57,552 nt of DNA from an uncultured Bacteroidota bacterium (GTDB lineage Bacteria > Bacteroidota > Bacteroidia > Bacteroidales > VadinHA17), in contig CALMJY010000046.1 of the NCBI GenBank assembly GCA_937864815.1, forward strand, positions 1-57,552. Direction: 5' to 3'. The notes under the pieces were generated by a model, which saw only the letters and a program-made list of their open reading frames with translations, was not told where the DNA came from and searched no databases. Shown one piece after another: positions 34,047-49,476 of the stretch (the first letter of the stretch is position 1; every line of letters starts with the position of its first letter). The position numbers and the translations under genes were made by a program.

Positions 34047-34487
34047 TTATTTTTTCATCTTAAATCCGAACATAATGGAAACGCAACCACTTGCAGGTGT
34101 ATCGCCAGCCTGGTTAAATGAAGATACTTTTACGATAAGTTTAAGCTGCTGTGAAGATTGCAGCTTAAAGTCCCATGTTTTTGCATAATCGTGTTCCTTG
34201 TTTGAATAGAGGACATTTTTATTTGCATCCATGATTCGAAACTCAATGTTTGGAAGCTTATCCTCACCGCAAATAGCTATTCTATAATCCATATCGGAAT
34301 AGAATGTTTTATAAAGTTCAGCCTCCTCACCTTCAACCAGCACAGCGGCATGGTAATTGCCATCATGAGTATAAGAAGCCAGCTCGGGAAGGCACACCTT
34401 CTTCGCGAAAGCCTTGCATTGAGCATCGGCATTAGCTGATGCCAGCAGAAACAATGCAAGGATCGGTAATATTTTAAGTAGTCTCAT
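34047..34487 (-). CDS. Small secreted protein, unknown
   Basis: A 146-residue exported protein with a signal peptide of about 23 residues ending 'ADAQ'. The mature part is beta-rich and holds four cysteines (two early: 'CKAF', 'KVCLP'; then 'AICGED' and 'ASGCVS') that may form disulfides. The pattern 'YHAAVLVEGEEAEL' and 'SGCVSIMFGF' recalls conserved Bacteroidetes periplasmic proteins of unknown role. It starts 8 bp after the lipoprotein gene stop on the same strand and is likely co-transcribed with it. Confidence 0.78.
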   Translation of the reverse strand: MRLLKILPILALFLLASANADAQCKAFAKKVCLPELASYTHDGNYHAAVLVEGEEAELYKTFYSDMDYRIAICGEDKLPNIEFRIMDANKNVLYSNKEHDYAKTWDFKLQSSQQLKLIVKVSSFNQAGDTPASGCVSIMFGFKMKK

Positions 34488-34495
34488 AGTCTGTG

Positions 34496-35416
34496 TTATT
34501 TTACAAATGAATTTCTTATCTCACCTACTGTTTTTGAAAGCTCAAGGAATACTTCAGGAGTCATATCGGTTTGTACTTCCGATTTCAGAACTGTAGTGTT
34601 TGATGACTGGTCAAACTCAGGGCGTACAGGAGAGGTGGTAATTTTTATTTTGTCAAAAACAACCTTAAGCTTGTTGACCTGACCAATCAGTTCATCAACA
34701 GCAGGATCTCCCTTGCTGCTCTCAAGGAGACTGATAAGTATATCTATAGACAGTTTCTGGTCAATTATCCTGCCCACCAGCTTATTTCCATTGAATTCCT
34801 TCATATCCACAAGCTGGGTGGAAATATAAAGTCCTTCGAACCATCCTCCAACAAGTGTCATTGCTGCAATGGCAGGCTGTCCGTTATCCTCCAGGTATGA
34901 GTTTGAATTCATGAATGTCTCACTCACAATCTCCATGATAACTTCACTGTTATTTATATTCTCTTCCAGCCTGTCGATAGTTGACTGTTCAATTGCTTTA
35001 AGAATGCCAAGACCATCAGCCATCTTTTTAGCAGCATTCATGTAATCGATAATCAGCTGTGTTTGTTCATAAAGGCTTGCAAAACTGAGGTCGCAGGTGT
35101 AAATCCCCAGGTTTAGTGCCATGCTCTTGTTTGTAACATATTTATTCACACTGCCAACAGGGTTGAGAAGAGACTCATCAAACCTTGCACCGGCAGATTT
35201 TATGAGCATTGCTGATTCAAGCGGTGAAGGCAAGGCATTGAAAATCCTCTCAGCCTGTTTGATGTCTTCATAAACTGTAGCATTATCTTTGGGAACTTCA
35301 ACTGTCAAGTCTTCCTTAGGTGCCTTGTTCCCACCTGATTTGCAGCCAGCAAGAATAATGGTACTCATAATAACTACCATTAAAAGCCCTGAACACATTC
35401 TATGATTTCTATTCAT
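34496..35416 (-). CDS. Helical lipoprotein, unknown
   Basis: A 306-residue lipoprotein. The ATG at 35416 is preferred over 35425 because a candidate -7 box at 35436-35443 would leave too short a leader for the latter. The signal ends in lipobox 'IILAGC' (Cys25). The mature protein is mostly helical and acidic, with 'NALPSPLESAMLI' near the N-terminus, 'LGIYTCDLSFASLYEQ' near residue 110 and 'LVGGWFEGLYIST' near 190. No family was recognised with certainty. It pairs with the small secreted protein downstream (8-bp gap), suggesting a shared envelope role. Confidence 0.75.
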   Translation of the reverse strand: MNRNHRMCSGLLMVVIMSTIILAGCKSGGNKAPKEDLTVEVPKDNATVYEDIKQAERIFNALPSPLESAMLIKSAGARFDESLLNPVGSVNKYVTNKSMALNLGIYTCDLSFASLYEQTQLIIDYMNAAKKMADGLGILKAIEQSTIDRLEENINNSEVIMEIVSETFMNSNSYLEDNGQPAIAAMTLVGGWFEGLYISTQLVDMKEFNGNKLVGRIIDQKLSIDILISLLESSKGDPAVDELIGQVNKLKVVFDKIKITTSPVRPEFDQSSNTTVLKSEVQTDMTPEVFLELSKTVGEIRNSFVK

Positions 35417-35435
35417 AATGAACATATTTAATTAT

Positions 35436-43834: not shown

Positions 43835-44197
43835 ATGAATTACAAACTCATCAATTCAGACTATCTCGATTCAGTATCCGGTGGTGATCCTCAATTTATT
43901 GCTGAGATAGTTGCCATGTTCAGTGTTCAGGTTAATGAGTTTTTTGAAGAGATGAAACGCCTGCATTCCGGGAAGGATTTTCGTGCTTTGGGTATGATGG
44001 CTCACAAGGCAAAATCATCAGTTGCAATTATGGGAATGAGTGAACTCGCAACCATTCTTAAAACACTTGAGCTTTCTGCAAAGGAAGGAAAAGACACAGA
44101 GCTTTATGAATCATATATTAATAAGTTCGGTGAGGATACAAAAAATGCTGTCACAGAACTTAATGATCTGGTCAAAAACCGAATAAAGAGGAGCTGA
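43835..44197 (+). CDS. HPt domain protein
   Basis: A 120-residue all-helical histidine phosphotransfer protein. His57 in 'GMMAHKAKSSVAIMG' is the phospho-acceptor in the usual HxxKGSS-like setting. It should relay phosphate between a hybrid kinase and a response regulator, neither of which is encoded nearby. The stop codon TGA shares its last base with the next start (TGATG), so it is co-translated with the STAS protein, which suggests that the relay output meets partner-switching control. Confidence 0.9.
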   Translation: MNYKLINSDYLDSVSGGDPQFIAEIVAMFSVQVNEFFEEMKRLHSGKDFRALGMMAHKAKSSVAIMGMSELATILKTLELSAKEGKDTELYESYINKFGEDTKNAVTELNDLVKNRIKRS

Positions 44198-44532
44198 TGA
44201 TCAATGTTGAAAAAAAAGACAAAATAGATATTGTTACCTTTCCGGTTAACAAGATAAATGCCCTGATAACCGATGATATCAGGGATGAAATAGGCAAATT
44301 ATCAGGCATATCCAATTCCAAAATAATTATTGACCTCACTGGTGTTGAATACATTGACAGTTCAGGGTTCAGCTGTCTTCTTTCAATAATGAAAACCGTA
44401 AGAAACAACTATGGCATTATCAAGTTCGCCAATCCAGGCCCGAATGTAATGGAACTGCTTAAAATGCTTCATCTTGATACAGTTTTTCAGATATATGGAG
44501 ATCTGGAATCATGTATCAGATCATTCAGGTAA
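44197..44532 (+). CDS. STAS-domain anti-anti-sigma-like protein
   Basis: A 111-residue single STAS domain. The 'YIDSSGFSCLLSI' motif holds Ser55/Ser56; the second Ser corresponds to the phosphorylated residue of SpoIIAA-type antagonists. Such proteins switch partners after phosphorylation by an HATPase kinase and dephosphorylation by a PP2C phosphatase. No matching kinase is adjacent, but a SiaB-type HATPase kinase lies 4.4 kb away. It is translationally coupled to the HPt gene. Confidence 0.92.
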   Translation: MINVEKKDKIDIVTFPVNKINALITDDIRDEIGKLSGISNSKIIIDLTGVEYIDSSGFSCLLSIMKTVRNNYGIIKFANPGPNVMELLKMLHLDTVFQIYGDLESCIRSFR

Positions 44533-45354: not shown

Positions 45355-48300
45355 ATGAGTGAAAAGATCCTAGAAACCCTGATGCAACTATTCGCAATAA
45401 TTGCCAAGCCACAAAGCAATGACAGTGAAAGAAGAGGCGTCGTGGAAGCATTTCTTAGAAGGCTCCTCAACCAGGAGCTTGTTCAGACATATCTGTCAAC
45501 ATATGATGCAGCTTATGAGGAGGCAAGGAAAAAACTTGAGAAGAGTAGTGCTGAAAGGCGTGAAGGCGCTATTGCCATTAGGATCAGAAAGTTATGTAAA
45601 GAGATCAATGAACAGGGTCAGCTTGCACAGGACCAGAGAATTGTGGTTGTAATACAGGTTCTTGAATTCTGCAAATCAGGAGGAGGAGAAGTAAGCCAGC
45701 TTGAACTCGGTTTTATCAGCACACTGGCTGAAGGATTGAATATAACATCAGAAGAATATGAGCATATCGAAAAATTTGTACTGAATCCATTCACAAACAT
45801 ACCCTCTACATCCAACCTTTTAATAATCAACGGAATACCCGACTACAATCCCGGGGAGGCAAAACATGTTTATAAGGATCAGCTGAAAGGCAATGTGTGG
45901 GTACTCTTCGTGCCATCGGTTCAGATGTACTTTGTCAGGTTTAAGGGATCTGGTGAACTTTCCATGAACGGCCAGCTGCTACAGGAAGAGAAGGTATATC
46001 CATTCAGCCAGGGAGCTGCAATAAAAGGATACAAGATAACTCCTGTTTATTACTGGGACGTAACCATGCAATTCCTTAAGGAGGAGTTTATGGCGTCCAG
46101 GGTTGTTTATGAGGTCAATAACCTGGAATACAGGTTTAAGAACGGGAAAGTTGGTATACACCATATGACCTTCAAGGAAGAATCAGGCAGAATGGTAGGA
46201 ATAATGGGAGCCAGCGGTGCAGGAAAATCCACACTTCTTGGTGTGCTCAACGGAACCAATAGTCCTTTTGACGGTGAAGTCCTTATTAATGGTGTAAGCA
46301 TTCATAAAGATAAGGACAAAGTAAAAGGGCTCATAGGGTATGTATCTCAGGATGATCTGCTTATTGAAGAACTCTCTGTTTTTGAAAACCTTTACTATAA
46401 TGCCAAGCTTTGCTTTGATAATCTTTCCGAAGAGGAAATAGTAGCCAGAGTTGACAGTGTTCTGAAAAACCTGGGACTCTACGAGATCAGGGATATACAG
46501 GTTGGAAGTCCGCTGAATAAAAAAATCAGTGGCGGACAGAGAAAGAGACTGAATATTTCGCTTGAGCTTATTCGTGAACCGGCAATTATGTTCCTCGATG
46601 AACCGACTTCCGGTCTTTCATCCCGTGATTCAGAAAATATCCTTGACCTTCTGAAGGAACTGGCAAGAAAAGGGAAGCTGCTCTTCATAGTTATTCATCA
46701 GCCTTCTTCTGAAATATTCAAGATGTTCGACAAGCTTATAATCCTTGATACCGGAGGTTATCTTATTTACAATGGTAATCCGATCGACTCCATCGAATAC
46801 TTTAAAAGGAAGATTGAACAGGCAAACTACAATGAAAGTGAATGTTTCGTTTGCGGAAATGTCAATCCCGAGCAGATATTCAACATTGTTGAAACCAAGG
46901 TATTCACTGAGAGCGGTCAGCCAACCGAAACAAGAAGGATCTCACCTTCACACTGGAGGAATCTTTTCCTGGATGAAAATAAGGAAGACATCCGGGAGCC
47001 TGGCGGGGCAATTCCTGAAATCAATTTCAAGACCCCAAACAAGCTGAAACAATTTATTGTTTTCACAAAGAGAGATGTGCTCTCAAAAATAGCCGATACA
47101 CAATATCTTTTAATTACTCTGCTCGAAGCACCGGTACTGGCATTCTTCCTGGCATTCCTCATTAAATATTTTAATGAGAGTTCAAAGGATGCACATTATA
47201 CTTTGTATGAGAACAGCAATCTGCCTGTTTATCTCTTTATGTCGGTTATCGTGGCAATTTTTATGGGTCTTACTGTAAGTGCCGAGGAAATCATTAAAGA
47301 CAGGAAAATACTTAAGCGTGAGGCATTTCTGAATCTCAGCTGGAACAGCTATCTTATGTCAAAGGTATTTGTCCAGTTCGGTATCTCTGCAATTCAGGCT
47401 TTTACTTTTGTTCTGGTTGGAAACGGAATCACAGAAATAAAAGGGATGATGCTTCAGTACTGGTTTGTTCTCTTCACATGCTGGGCCGGGGCTAACATGC
47501 TTGGCCTTGTAATATCTGACAGTTTCAAGGCAGTTGTAACCATTTATATCCTTATTCCCTTCCTCGTCATACCACAGATCATTCTGAGCGGTGTCATGGT
47601 TAAATTTGAAAAACTTAACCCCAATATTTCATCCCCAAGTTCCATACCTTTTTACGGGGAGTTTATTACTGCACGTTGGGGATATGAAGCTCTTGCGGTT
47701 AATCAATTCATATACAATAAATTCGAAAACCAGTTTTATGAATATGAAAAGATGAAGAGCCGTGGGAACTTCAAAAGAAATTTCTGGTGCACCGAAATGA
47801 AATCGAAGCTGGAATTATTAACCAATAGCCTGAAAAAAGGTGAGAGGAATGAAGATTTCATTTACAACCTCACCATTGTCAGAAATGAAATAGCCAAGGA
47901 GATGGTATTCGTGCCCAAAATCAAATTTGAATACCTTGATATGCTTACACATGATAAAGTAACGACTGAAGCATTAGCTGCCGCCCATAACTATGTCGAG
48001 ATCCTGCGAAAGTATTATATCGATTACTATAATTTCGCTGATAACAAAAGAAATGCTCTAATCGGCAGATTAGAGAAGGAAGAAGGAAACCTTTTTATGT
48101 TGTTACGCGACAAACACCATAATGAATCACTTGAAGAGTTTGCTGTAAACAAGAATGAAACTGAAACAATAATAGAATATAAGGGAGAGCTTATTCAGAA
48201 AATGGATCCTATTTTCCTTGATCCGAGCCATCCGTTTATCAAGGCTCATTTTTATTCCCCAACAAAACAGGTCTTCGGAACATATGTTGACACATATTTA

Positions 48301-48420
48301 GTAAACGTTATTGTTTTATGGGTTATGACTCTGGGGCTTTACCTGGCGCTCTATTTCAGGCTACTGAAAAGGTTGCTTGATTCAGGTGAAGTTATTATGG
48401 GCAAGAAATTCAAGGAGTAG
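45355..48420 (+). CDS. TerB-like/ABC/permease fusion, ABCG-type exporter
   Basis: A 1021-residue fused half-transporter. The N-terminal 145 residues are helical and TerB-like ('MQLFAIIAKPQ', 'LELGFISTLAEGLNI'). A beta-rich, faintly FHA-like part (about 165-235) follows. The ATPase has Walker A 'GASGAGKST' at about 285-293, signature 'SGGQRKRL' near 391 and Walker B 'IMFLDEPTSGL' near 411, the order and 'PTSGL' wording of ABCG/White exporters. Six membrane helices run from about 583 to 760 and at 975-1000, with a 200-residue charged helical insertion before the last. It likely exports a lipid or lipophilic compound as a dimer. siaC converges on it. Confidence 0.88.
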   Translation: MSEKILETLMQLFAIIAKPQSNDSERRGVVEAFLRRLLNQELVQTYLSTYDAAYEEARKKLEKSSAERREGAIAIRIRKLCKEINEQGQLAQDQRIVVVIQVLEFCKSGGGEVSQLELGFISTLAEGLNITSEEYEHIEKFVLNPFTNIPSTSNLLIINGIPDYNPGEAKHVYKDQLKGNVWVLFVPSVQMYFVRFKGSGELSMNGQLLQEEKVYPFSQGAAIKGYKITPVYYWDVTMQFLKEEFMASRVVYEVNNLEYRFKNGKVGIHHMTFKEESGRMVGIMGASGAGKSTLLGVLNGTNSPFDGEVLINGVSIHKDKDKVKGLIGYVSQDDLLIEELSVFENLYYNAKLCFDNLSEEEIVARVDSVLKNLGLYEIRDIQVGSPLNKKISGGQRKRLNISLELIREPAIMFLDEPTSGLSSRDSENILDLLKELARKGKLLFIVIHQPSSEIFKMFDKLIILDTGGYLIYNGNPIDSIEYFKRKIEQANYNESECFVCGNVNPEQIFNIVETKVFTESGQPTETRRISPSHWRNLFLDENKEDIREPGGAIPEINFKTPNKLKQFIVFTKRDVLSKIADTQYLLITLLEAPVLAFFLAFLIKYFNESSKDAHYTLYENSNLPVYLFMSVIVAIFMGLTVSAEEIIKDRKILKREAFLNLSWNSYLMSKVFVQFGISAIQAFTFVLVGNGITEIKGMMLQYWFVLFTCWAGANMLGLVISDSFKAVVTIYILIPFLVIPQIILSGVMVKFEKLNPNISSPSSIPFYGEFITARWGYEALAVNQFIYNKFENQFYEYEKMKSRGNFKRNFWCTEMKSKLELLTNSLKKGERNEDFIYNLTIVRNEIAKEMVFVPKIKFEYLDMLTHDKVTTEALAAAHNYVEILRKYYIDYYNFADNKRNALIGRLEKEEGNLFMLLRDKHHNESLEEFAVNKNETETIIEYKGELIQKMDPIFLDPSHPFIKAHFYSPTKQVFGTYVDTYLVNVIVLWVMTLGLYLALYFRLLKRLLDSGEVIMGKKFKE

Positions 48421-48439: not shown

Positions 48440-48469
48440 AAGAGGCTGCCTCATATGAGACAGCCTCTT
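48440..48469. terminator. Bidirectional terminator between ABC exporter and siaC
   Basis: Arms aagaggctgcctca (48440-48453) and tgagacagcctctt (48456-48469) pair over 14 bp with one mismatch and a 2-nt turn. T-rich runs follow on both strands. On the minus strand the mismatch becomes a U-G wobble. Confidence 0.85.
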
Positions 48470-48514: not shown

Positions 48515-48895
48515 TCAGTCGGTGATTTCAATCATCTTGAAAGGTACTCTGATGATTGACTCATAGTCCTCTCCGGCTTCGAGCATATCCTCATCGTCCT
48601 CTTCATAATACCAGTTAACCTCTACTTCATTTTTAGCCTTGTGAATAGCTTCAAGTTTCTTGAAGACATCAAGTATGCATTTGGAGGAACTTGTATTGAA
48701 ATATTCAAGACGTATATTAACCGTAGTTTTTGCCAGCGGGGTTTCCTTATAACTCTCGAGCCAGTCGACTAGCGGTTTGTAAAACTCTACTGAGTTTTCA
48801 GGAATTGAGCGTCCTTTGATTTCAAAAATTCCAGCTGCAGCATCAAATTTTACTGTTGGTGTTTTCGGGGTTCCTTCGATGATGATCGGTTCCAT
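48515..48895 (-). CDS. siaC: SiaC-family regulatory phosphoprotein (DUF1987)
   Basis: A 126-residue small alpha/beta protein of the SiaC family. 'TPKTPTVKFDAAAGIFEIKGRSIPENS' is the family's N-terminal pattern and 'LEYFNTSSSKCILDV' contains Thr68, the same number as the Thr phosphorylated in Pseudomonas SiaC. In Pseudomonas, SiaC is phosphorylated by SiaB and dephosphorylated by SiaA and then activates a diguanylate cyclase; no such cyclase is seen here, so the Bacteroidota target must differ. It lies 20 bp after siaB on the same strand. Confidence 0.93.
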   Translation of the reverse strand: MEPIIIEGTPKTPTVKFDAAAGIFEIKGRSIPENSVEFYKPLVDWLESYKETPLAKTTVNIRLEYFNTSSSKCILDVFKKLEAIHKAKNEVEVNWYYEEDDEDMLEAGEDYESIIRVPFKMIEITD

Positions 48896-48915: not shown

Positions 48916-49476
48916 TTAATTTTCTTTTTCTTCGCTTACCAGAATATCCAGATAAAAAAATGAATAATTGTCATTATACTTAACAAAAGCATAGTCTAAT
49001 TTGTTACCTGTTTTTCTTGCGATATCTACCAGTCCGAGTCCTCCGCCTCCCTTTGCGGAGATCCTCTGATGATTGAGTATAAACTTGTATAGTTCCTTTA
49101 TCTCCTCATGAGTTGACCGGTTAATACGCTTTATTTTCTCCTCCAGCTTCTCAATATTTTCACTCTGGACAAAATTACCTGTCACAATTTTATACCCTGT
49201 ATCCACTTTTTTAACTACAAGCAAACCATATTTTTCAGCCTGCTCCTCAAAATCAGCTGGTACTTTATCAACATGGTGAAAAAGATTCTGTAAACTCTCA
49301 ACAAGCACATTATAAACTTTCTTGCGGAGTTTAGGATTATCGTTTACGGCCACCATTTTTTCCTCAACCGAGTCAAGTACATGGTTTATCACGTCAGAAT
49401 CAACATTACCCTTATACATAAGGATTACATTGTCTTTTGGCTGATCTGAAAAATAATTCTCTATATTAAAGCTCAT
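48916..49476 (-). CDS. siaB: SiaB-family protein kinase
   Basis: A 186-residue kinase with an HATPase-like fold (DUF6272). The N-box-like 'YNVLVESLQNLFHHVD' near 55-70 binds Mg-ATP, and 'SAKGGGGLGLVDIARKTG' near 140-158 is the glycine-rich lid. It would phosphorylate SiaC encoded next to it. A strong promoter precedes it. The matching PP2C phosphatase (SiaA) is not in the window. STAS proteins at 44197 and 54952 could be other partners. Confidence 0.93.
   Translation of the reverse strand: MSFNIENYFSDQPKDNVILMYKGNVDSDVINHVLDSVEEKMVAVNDNPKLRKKVYNVLVESLQNLFHHVDKVPADFEEQAEKYGLLVVKKVDTGYKIVTGNFVQSENIEKLEEKIKRINRSTHEEIKELYKFILNHQRISAKGGGGLGLVDIARKTGNKLDYAFVKYNDNYSFFYLDILVSEEKEN

Follow-up and report, generated by a model that had tools for sequence, protein, structure and literature searches.

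A Bacteroidota family of ABCG-type half-transporters with predicted TerB and FHA-like N-terminal folds, and its gene association with the phosphoprotein SiaC and the kinase SiaB

We analysed a stretch of 57,552 nucleotides (henceforth the window), i.e., the forward strand of contig CALMJY010000046.1 in assembly GCA_937864815.1 from an uncultured bacterium of the Bacteroidota (Bacteroidales; VadinHA17), with a focus on one transporter gene and its neighbours (Table 1). The gene encodes a half-transporter of the ABCG type within the ATP-binding cassette (ABC) proteins, in which a predicted TerB fold and a predicted FHA-like beta-sandwich are followed by the ATPase, the membrane domain, a long loop and the last transmembrane (TM) helix. 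Its convergent neighbours are siaC and siaB, which encode homologues of a regulatory phosphoprotein and of its kinase; the pair is flanked by the transporter gene and by a gene for an RlmL-like methyltransferase, and no gene for the diguanylate cyclase SiaD lies beside siaC. We found that the association between this transporter family and siaBC goes beyond chance.

An original prediction, made from the sequence alone, had described the gene as an ABCG-type exporter with an N-terminal TerB-like domain, a beta-rich FHA-like module and a large helical insertion before the last helix, sharing its terminator region with siaBC. The open reading frame was recovered exactly, with an ATG start, and relatives start with similar sequence. 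Pfam detected ABC_tran (residues 269-419, 2.3e-29) and then ABC2_membrane (1e-17) on a single chain, which is the layout of ABCG/White-type half-transporters, and TIGR00955 matched residues 259-789 (8.2e-80), although under its curated cut-off (269 of 736 bits). The ATPase motifs appear intact throughout the family, as the Walker A lysine was found in 183 of 185 aligned members and the signature SGG, the Walker B DE and the H-loop histidine in all 185. Hydropathy averaged over the family alignment peaked at about residues 591-598, 628-640, 674-686, 711-713, 724-745 and 986-999; these six peaks are consistent with the six-helix pattern of ABCG proteins with an enlarged loop between TM5 and TM6. 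The siaBC genes are convergent with the transporter gene, and a terminator-like hairpin (by consensus match) lies in between.

Table 1. Positions of the features discussed here, counted from the first letter of the window.
Feature	Position	Strand	Basis
TerB-FHA-ABCG half-transporter, 1021 aa (folds predicted)	45355..48420	+	ATG start; Pfam domains, family alignment
Predicted TerB-fold domain, residues 3-143	45361..45783	+	Predicted model; structural match; Pfam TerB in 39/76 N-termini
Predicted degenerate FHA-like beta-sandwich, about residues 152-240	45808..46074	+	Model, structural matches; canonical motifs mostly absent
Nucleotide-binding domain, about residues 252-480	46108..46794	+	Walker A 285-293, signature 391-398, Walker B 411-421, H-loop His448
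ABC2_membrane domain, residues 566-785	47050..47709	+	Pfam
Large TM5-TM6 loop: helical bundle (791-931), two hairpins (939-979)	47725..48291	+	Predicted model
Last TM helix, about residues 980-1014	48292..48396	+	Hydropathy; predicted model
Terminator-like hairpin between convergent ABCG gene and siaC	48440..48469	.	Consensus match only
SiaC-family regulatory phosphoprotein, Thr68	48515..48895	-	PF09345 1e-47; alignment to solved SiaC
SiaB-family protein kinase	48916..49476	-	NF038262 147.1 bits, cut-off 85
Lipoprotein, 309 aa, Cys28 of lipobox-like start	34496..35425	-	Profile search, open reading frame; conserved in genus
Small secreted-like protein, 146 aa, signal-like start by eye	34047..34487	-	Profile search, open reading frame; conserved in genus

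The two N-terminal folds, for which the original prediction had suggested structure prediction as a check, were both predicted by modelling. An AlphaFold2 model of residues 1-252 (pLDDT, the predicted local distance difference test score, 85.9) was aligned by VIA-align, in which a Z under 8 can reflect merely a common arrangement, to the TerB-like protein PG1108 (2h5n; Z 9.1, 119 residues, root-mean-square deviation 3.7) and to the tellurite-resistance protein 2ou3 (COG3793; Z 7.8, 136 residues, deviation 5.1). At E ≤ 1, Pfam TerB was matched by 39 of the 76 aligned family N-termini (best 8.6e-16), and the window transporter itself had no match. Metal-binding acidic residues are a trait of TerB domains. 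The known TerB and tellurite-resistance proteins thus share their fold with the predicted N-terminal domain; here, however, the domain so predicted is fused to an ABCG exporter.

For the beta-rich module, FHA-domain entries made up most of the 50 VIA-align rows listed (Z 5.9-7.4; e.g., 3gqs_B at 2.3 Å over 74 residues and 6hc1_A at 2.5 Å over 78). They also ranked top in Foldseek (probability about 0.99, best E 0.011, i.e., nothing at E ≤ 0.001). As both scores are modest (Foldseek E above 0.001, Z under 8), we base the predicted FHA-like fold on the consistency with which the lists consist of FHA entries. Sequence searches returned no such match: compared with the PDB, the N-terminal profile gave nothing credible (best E 0.36), the listing for the 76 N-termini, 25 families out of 68, did not include Pfam FHA, and this profile had no match on the window transporter or anywhere else in the window's genome. 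GR and SxxH are the phosphothreonine-binding motifs of FHA domains, and both are mostly absent from the family (18/185 and 12/185, respectively). We therefore class the beta-sandwich as an FHA-like fold and not as a phosphothreonine-binding FHA domain.

The enlarged loop was modelled together with the last helix (residues 758-1015, pLDDT 90.5) as a helical bundle and two hairpins that run into that helix. In ABCG topology the TM5-TM6 loop lies outside the membrane, and by this analogy the present loop would face the periplasm or the outer side. Foldseek found nothing for the loop model at E ≤ 0.001, Pfam gave merely weak, scattered matches, and VIA-align returned generic helical bundles alone; the best of these, a FliS chaperone, was dropped as a candidate relative because its Z of 7.9 may signify only a common helical arrangement.

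In an alignment of the window SiaC with the solved SiaC 6kko (4.6e-19), Thr68 occupies the NTSS context known from the reported phosphorylated peptide LLYLNTSSIK; the window protein scores under the NCBIfam equivalog cut-off for SiaC (102.8 of 150 bits). Among SiaC proteins linked to transporters, the Thr68 column holds threonine in 82 of 84 rows (one of which, L081, repeats the window) and serine in the other 2; in the linked SiaB proteins, E60, N64 and the GGxGLG loop are conserved. The window's genome contains 14 SiaC matches and two SiaB genes only, one on the window's contig (C46) and one on contig C305, where a 388-residue frame carries a double-domain SiaB and no SiaC is present. The window pair is thus the only adjacent SiaB-SiaC pair in its genome, and around 12 of the other 13 SiaC matches no SiaB was found (the remaining one being a short match on contig C14).

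Several other arrangements of these genes were seen. Three tandem SiaC genes occur on contig C64 of the same genome (1283-2608, L271), and the short match on C14 (10187-10976) has a SpoIIE-phosphatase match beside it on the other strand. In genome G179, a 505-residue frame fuses two kinase-family domains to SiaC in the order SiaB-SiaB-SiaC (L267:895-2409, + strand; G179:C114). In the window, genes for an HPt-domain protein and a STAS-domain protein directly follow one another at 43835-44532 (+), upstream of a flavin reductase gene and the transporter gene; they are present in many close relatives and could form a second small phospho-signalling pair.

The original prediction had called the fusion unusual. 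The idea of a one-off fusion was rejected, as the architecture is family-wide and present in several copies per genome. Specifically, the best 80 of 130 relatives, which lean toward close relatives, are 42-88% identical to the window transporter, mostly full length and of the same architecture. Of these, 77 are labelled as Bacteroidota or members thereof. The other three carry the labels Glaciecola amylolytica (L072, 45% identical to the window transporter), Nitrospiraceae (L043, 85%, partial) and Verrucomicrobia (L070, 51%); their identities resemble those of Bacteroidota members, and the records may be mislabelled or contaminated, or the genes transferred. The window's genome itself holds three further full-length copies (four in total) and one fragment at a contig edge. 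At the level of the order, 34 of 80 genomes (80 genera) carry the family, with 1-5 copies each. Across the phylum, sampled evenly with 118 genomes, 12 matched the N-terminal profile; 3 of these have full-length genes, and the other 9 have short TerB-like matches. Members were also present in Fluviicola, Marinoscillum, Ancylomarina and Xanthocytophaga.

We built a tree from 185 transporters, i.e., the window, 75 loci from the genome-contig search, three copies from the window's own genome and 106 order-level loci; the own-genome fragment (L085) was omitted. Two alignments (A1, A2) comprised the window and 75 of the 80 best relatives, omitting L013, L032, L043, L053 and L059 as partial or odd. 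The 106 order-level loci come from 110 distinct places, with a second gene piece (G164:C411) dropped and four own-genome copies excluded. The window falls in clade A, which had a support of 0.343 on its own; clade B was supported at 0.999 and the union of A and B at 1.0.

Linkage to siaBC was then counted in the 106 loci, where SiaB and SiaC were searched with profiles; distances were measured from open frame to open frame, and gene order refers to the families searched, so that other genes may lie between. We found SiaC within 2 kb of the transporter in 42 of the 106 loci (33 other genera), compared with about 1.3 expected under uniform placement; this expectation was calculated from the 346 SiaC genes in 33 genomes and the genome sizes, and the Poisson values are nominal, given that related genomes are not independent. 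Because many loci are cut by contig ends, the linkage counts are lower bounds. In 26 of the linked loci SiaC lies upstream on the same strand, in 14 downstream and convergent, and in 2 otherwise; at least 28 of the 33 genomes have a linked locus, and 12 have both arrangements. Nearly all linked loci belong to clade A+B. Of the 28 order-level loci in clade B, 26 are preceded by siaB-siaC in the same orientation, with SiaC 4-357 bp away, and of the 29 in clade A, 14 are convergent with SiaC, as in the window. Both forms recur among the wider set of relatives, where SiaC was present in 41 of the 80 best locus stretches: the convergent one in the distant loci L054-L056 and L061, the operon form in L071 and L076. 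The neighbour statistics that the original prediction had suggested as a check thus bore out the association with siaBC.

Whole genomes gave the same picture (SiaC tallies per genome are complete). SiaC was found in 35 of the 80 order-level genomes, namely all 34 with the transporter and one (G166) of the 46 without it (Fisher p 8e-22, again nominal for related genomes). In the phylum sample it was found in 5 of 118 genomes, including all 3 with a full-length transporter.

Clustering of the neighbours of the 106 loci revealed further partners, none of which the original prediction had mentioned. A PAS/GAF-SpoIIE phosphatase was found in 40 of the 106, and 24 show the order SpoIIE, siaB, siaC, ABCG. 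This corresponds to siaABCD, except that the transporter occupies the position of SiaD. Of the 18 Pfam SpoIIE matches in the window's genome, none is on the window's contig. One of its paralogous ABCG genes and a 697-residue frame with a SpoIIE-phosphatase match are arranged tail to tail (C205:654-4375; L082).

Two further families recur near the transporter: a lipoprotein of about 300 residues (61 of 106 loci) and a secreted-like protein of about 150 residues (51 of 106). Among the 80 genomes, the lipoprotein family has precisely the same 34 carriers as the transporter, and the secreted-like family has 35, i.e., these 34 and G136; up to 29 candidates per genome were scored for the former, for which the per-genome tallies are complete, and up to 50 for the latter. 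In G136 the match (C58:54912-55343, E ≤ 1e-5) lies in a 372-residue frame and is the only one among the 46 transporter-free genomes. Neither family had a convincing relative in Pfam or the PDB; seven representatives of recurrent neighbour families were compared with Pfam. Of 93 lipoproteins, 64 match a lipobox pattern, and 32 of 78 secreted-like proteins match an AxA pattern. Cys28 of the lipoprotein is invariant (41/41), so the lipoprotein assignment rests better on this residue than on the pattern. The alignments used here (A3 and A4) are random samples with the window added, 41 of the 93 lipoproteins and 43 of the 78 secreted-like proteins.

In the window, this pair (34047-35425, - strand) lies next to uvrA, about 10 kb from the transporter. 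All 9 other genus members searched have a close relative of the pair (lipoprotein 69-93% identical), beside uvrA in 8 of 9 loci; the ninth, L251, had no uvrA match in the stretch examined. Lipoproteins group largely by the clade of the adjoining transporter, with L061, L068, L069 and the window's own fitting poorly; the window pair presumably serves the window transporter, a point that its tree position does not settle. At L069 (9040-15021), three lipoprotein-secreted gene pairs follow one transporter.

Taken together, these data suggest an ABCG-type exporter that is probably controlled by a Sia-type partner switch and works with lipoprotein and secreted-like partners in the envelope. In such a system, the phosphorylation state of SiaC Thr68 would be determined by SiaB and by a SpoIIE/PP2C phosphatase, whose gene is a neighbour in related operons and may lie elsewhere in the window's genome. 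SiaC in one state, most likely the unphosphorylated one as in Pseudomonas aeruginosa, would bind the cytoplasmic part of the transporter, docking on the TerB/FHA-like region or on the nucleotide-binding domain (NBD), and would thereby alter its ATPase activity or assembly. Across the membrane, the enlarged TM5-TM6 loop may cooperate with the dedicated lipoprotein and the small secreted protein. The direct contact, the active state of SiaC and the periplasmic docking are parts of this scheme that we infer; a regulatory tie of the transporter to SiaB and SiaC is plausible on the basis of gene association. For the substrate, an amphipathic or lipid-like compound would be our guess, given the ABCG relatives and the link of SiaABCD to membrane stress.

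Three described systems offer precedents. In P. aeruginosa, SiaC is reported to be phosphorylated at T68 by SiaB and dephosphorylated by SiaA (PMC7647112); according to PMC8457831, unphosphorylated SiaC binds and activates SiaD, DUF1987 proteins are suggested to modulate adjacent proteins, and SiaC is structurally related to STAS domains. The window locus shares with SiaABCD, as described, the SiaB and SiaC homologues and Thr68 in its NTSS context, and clade B relatives also match its phosphatase-siaB-siaC-effector order; here, however, the neighbour of siaC is an ABCG transporter and not SiaD, the window's siaBC genes are convergent with it, and no phosphatase was found nearby. In Escherichia coli, the STAS protein MlaB is reported to bind and control the ABC ATPase MlaF (PMC7367683), a case of a small STAS-domain protein acting on an ABC ATPase that parallels the STAS-related SiaC, with a similar effect on a target's activity envisaged here. 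As described, MlaFEDB is a multi-subunit lipid transporter, whereas ours is a one-chain ABCG half-transporter. To our knowledge, the Mla system has no SiaB-type kinase. Finally, Rv1747 of Mycobacterium tuberculosis is reported as an FHA-containing ABC exporter in an operon with the Ser/Thr kinase PknF, with similarity to White noted (PMC3908365). It resembles the present case in that NBD and TM domain share one chain with FHA-fold regulatory domains and a protein kinase gene is linked. It differs, in the features described, in having two FHA domains and PknF, whereas here one degenerate FHA-like domain follows TerB and a SiaB-type kinase comes with SiaC, and in the lipoprotein and secreted-like families linked here.

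Several observations weigh against direct control of the exporter by SiaC. SiaC is absent within 2 kb from 64 of the 106 loci, including 47 of 49 clade C paralogues (2 are linked), and from 39 of the 80 relatives' locus stretches (i.e., the stretches around the loci only), among them Fluviicola (L063-L066) and many Flavobacteriales. Three genomes (G079, G109 and G166) have SiaC without the transporter, and our in-house profile detected no SpoIIE gene in the window at E ≤ 1e-15. In a mirror-tree analysis, a weak test from which the window, L061, L068 and L069 were left out, the partial correlations of SiaC showed no positive signal for TerB (-0.12) or FHA (-0.17); they were highest for NBD (0.36) and TM domain (0.38), and no docking domain was singled out by region for SiaC, SiaB, the lipoprotein or the secreted-like protein. 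Moreover, it is from gene association that we infer a contact between SiaC and the transporter.

Some of these points can also be explained if SiaB, SiaC and the transporter are co-inherited and co-located through one lifestyle regulon, with SiaC acting elsewhere without touching the transporter. SiaC far outnumbers the transporter within genomes (2-21 versus 1-5 copies), and the other 13 SiaC matches in the window's genome lie on contigs without a copy of the ABCG family. In addition, 9 of the 14 convergent loci at order level have an RlmL-like gene close by, so that the window-type linkage is in part general synteny that takes in other genes. By contrast, 26 of the 28 order-level clade B loci place siaB-siaC upstream in the transporter's direction, usually with SpoIIE, and so reproduce the siaABCD order, and we consider a mere shared regulon rather unlikely.

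We also weighed whether the FHA-like domain reads phosphothreonine directly, binding phospho-SiaC (phosphorylated at Thr68) or another phosphosite in the canonical way, as proposed for Rv1747 (PMC3908365). The fold predicted by both Foldseek and VIA-align and the conserved phosphorylatable threonine of SiaC would fit, as does that precedent; the scarcity of GR and SxxH motifs, the absence of Pfam FHA from the listed families and from the window's genome, and the report that the target in P. aeruginosa is bound by unphosphorylated SiaC (PMC8457831) argue against it. Canonical reading by this domain thus appears unlikely, and this explanation as a whole improbable. The original prediction had proposed that the extra domains sense stress or phospho-signals from siaBC: the gene association and a plausible regulatory link remain of that proposal, and phospho-reading by the FHA-like domain is not supported. 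Least probable of all is a stress exporter gated by a TerB domain that senses metal or envelope stress, with SiaBC as a mere modifier, even though a TerB fold is predicted, its region is conserved in the family and P. aeruginosa SiaABCD is reported to respond to membrane stress such as SDS (sodium dodecyl sulfate; PMC12834913).

A Sia-type switch acting on the exporter hence remains the most economical reading, in view of the operon order, Thr68 and the precedents of MlaB-MlaF and PknF-Rv1747. More tentatively, and with slightly less than even confidence, we propose a modular envelope machine of the Bacteroidota, in which a TerB-FHA-ABCG exporter with its dedicated lipoprotein and small secreted protein occurs in several paralogous sets per genome, the transporter replaces siaD in a siaABCD-like operon, and the partner switch acts directly on an ABC exporter instead of a sigma factor or a cyclic di-GMP enzyme. 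Each part is of a known kind, and there is a fair chance that the combination of transporter, lipoprotein, secreted-like protein and partner switch is an undescribed system. Among the mainly open-access papers that we judged by titles and the starts of abstracts, none gave an account of SiaC beside an ABC transporter or of a TerB-ABC fusion, a negative that supports novelty only weakly.

A kinase, a PP2C phosphatase and a STAS-like protein form partner switches whose best-known targets are sigma factors and, in the case of SiaC, a diguanylate cyclase. Operons with an ABC exporter at the target position would extend this logic to membrane transport. The transporter is also a concrete candidate target of SiaC in genomes with many SiaC proteins (14 matches here and up to 21 in relatives). 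With two partner families whose distribution across genomes is nearly identical to that of the transporter, the system would be genetically testable, and these uncharacterised families gain a context.

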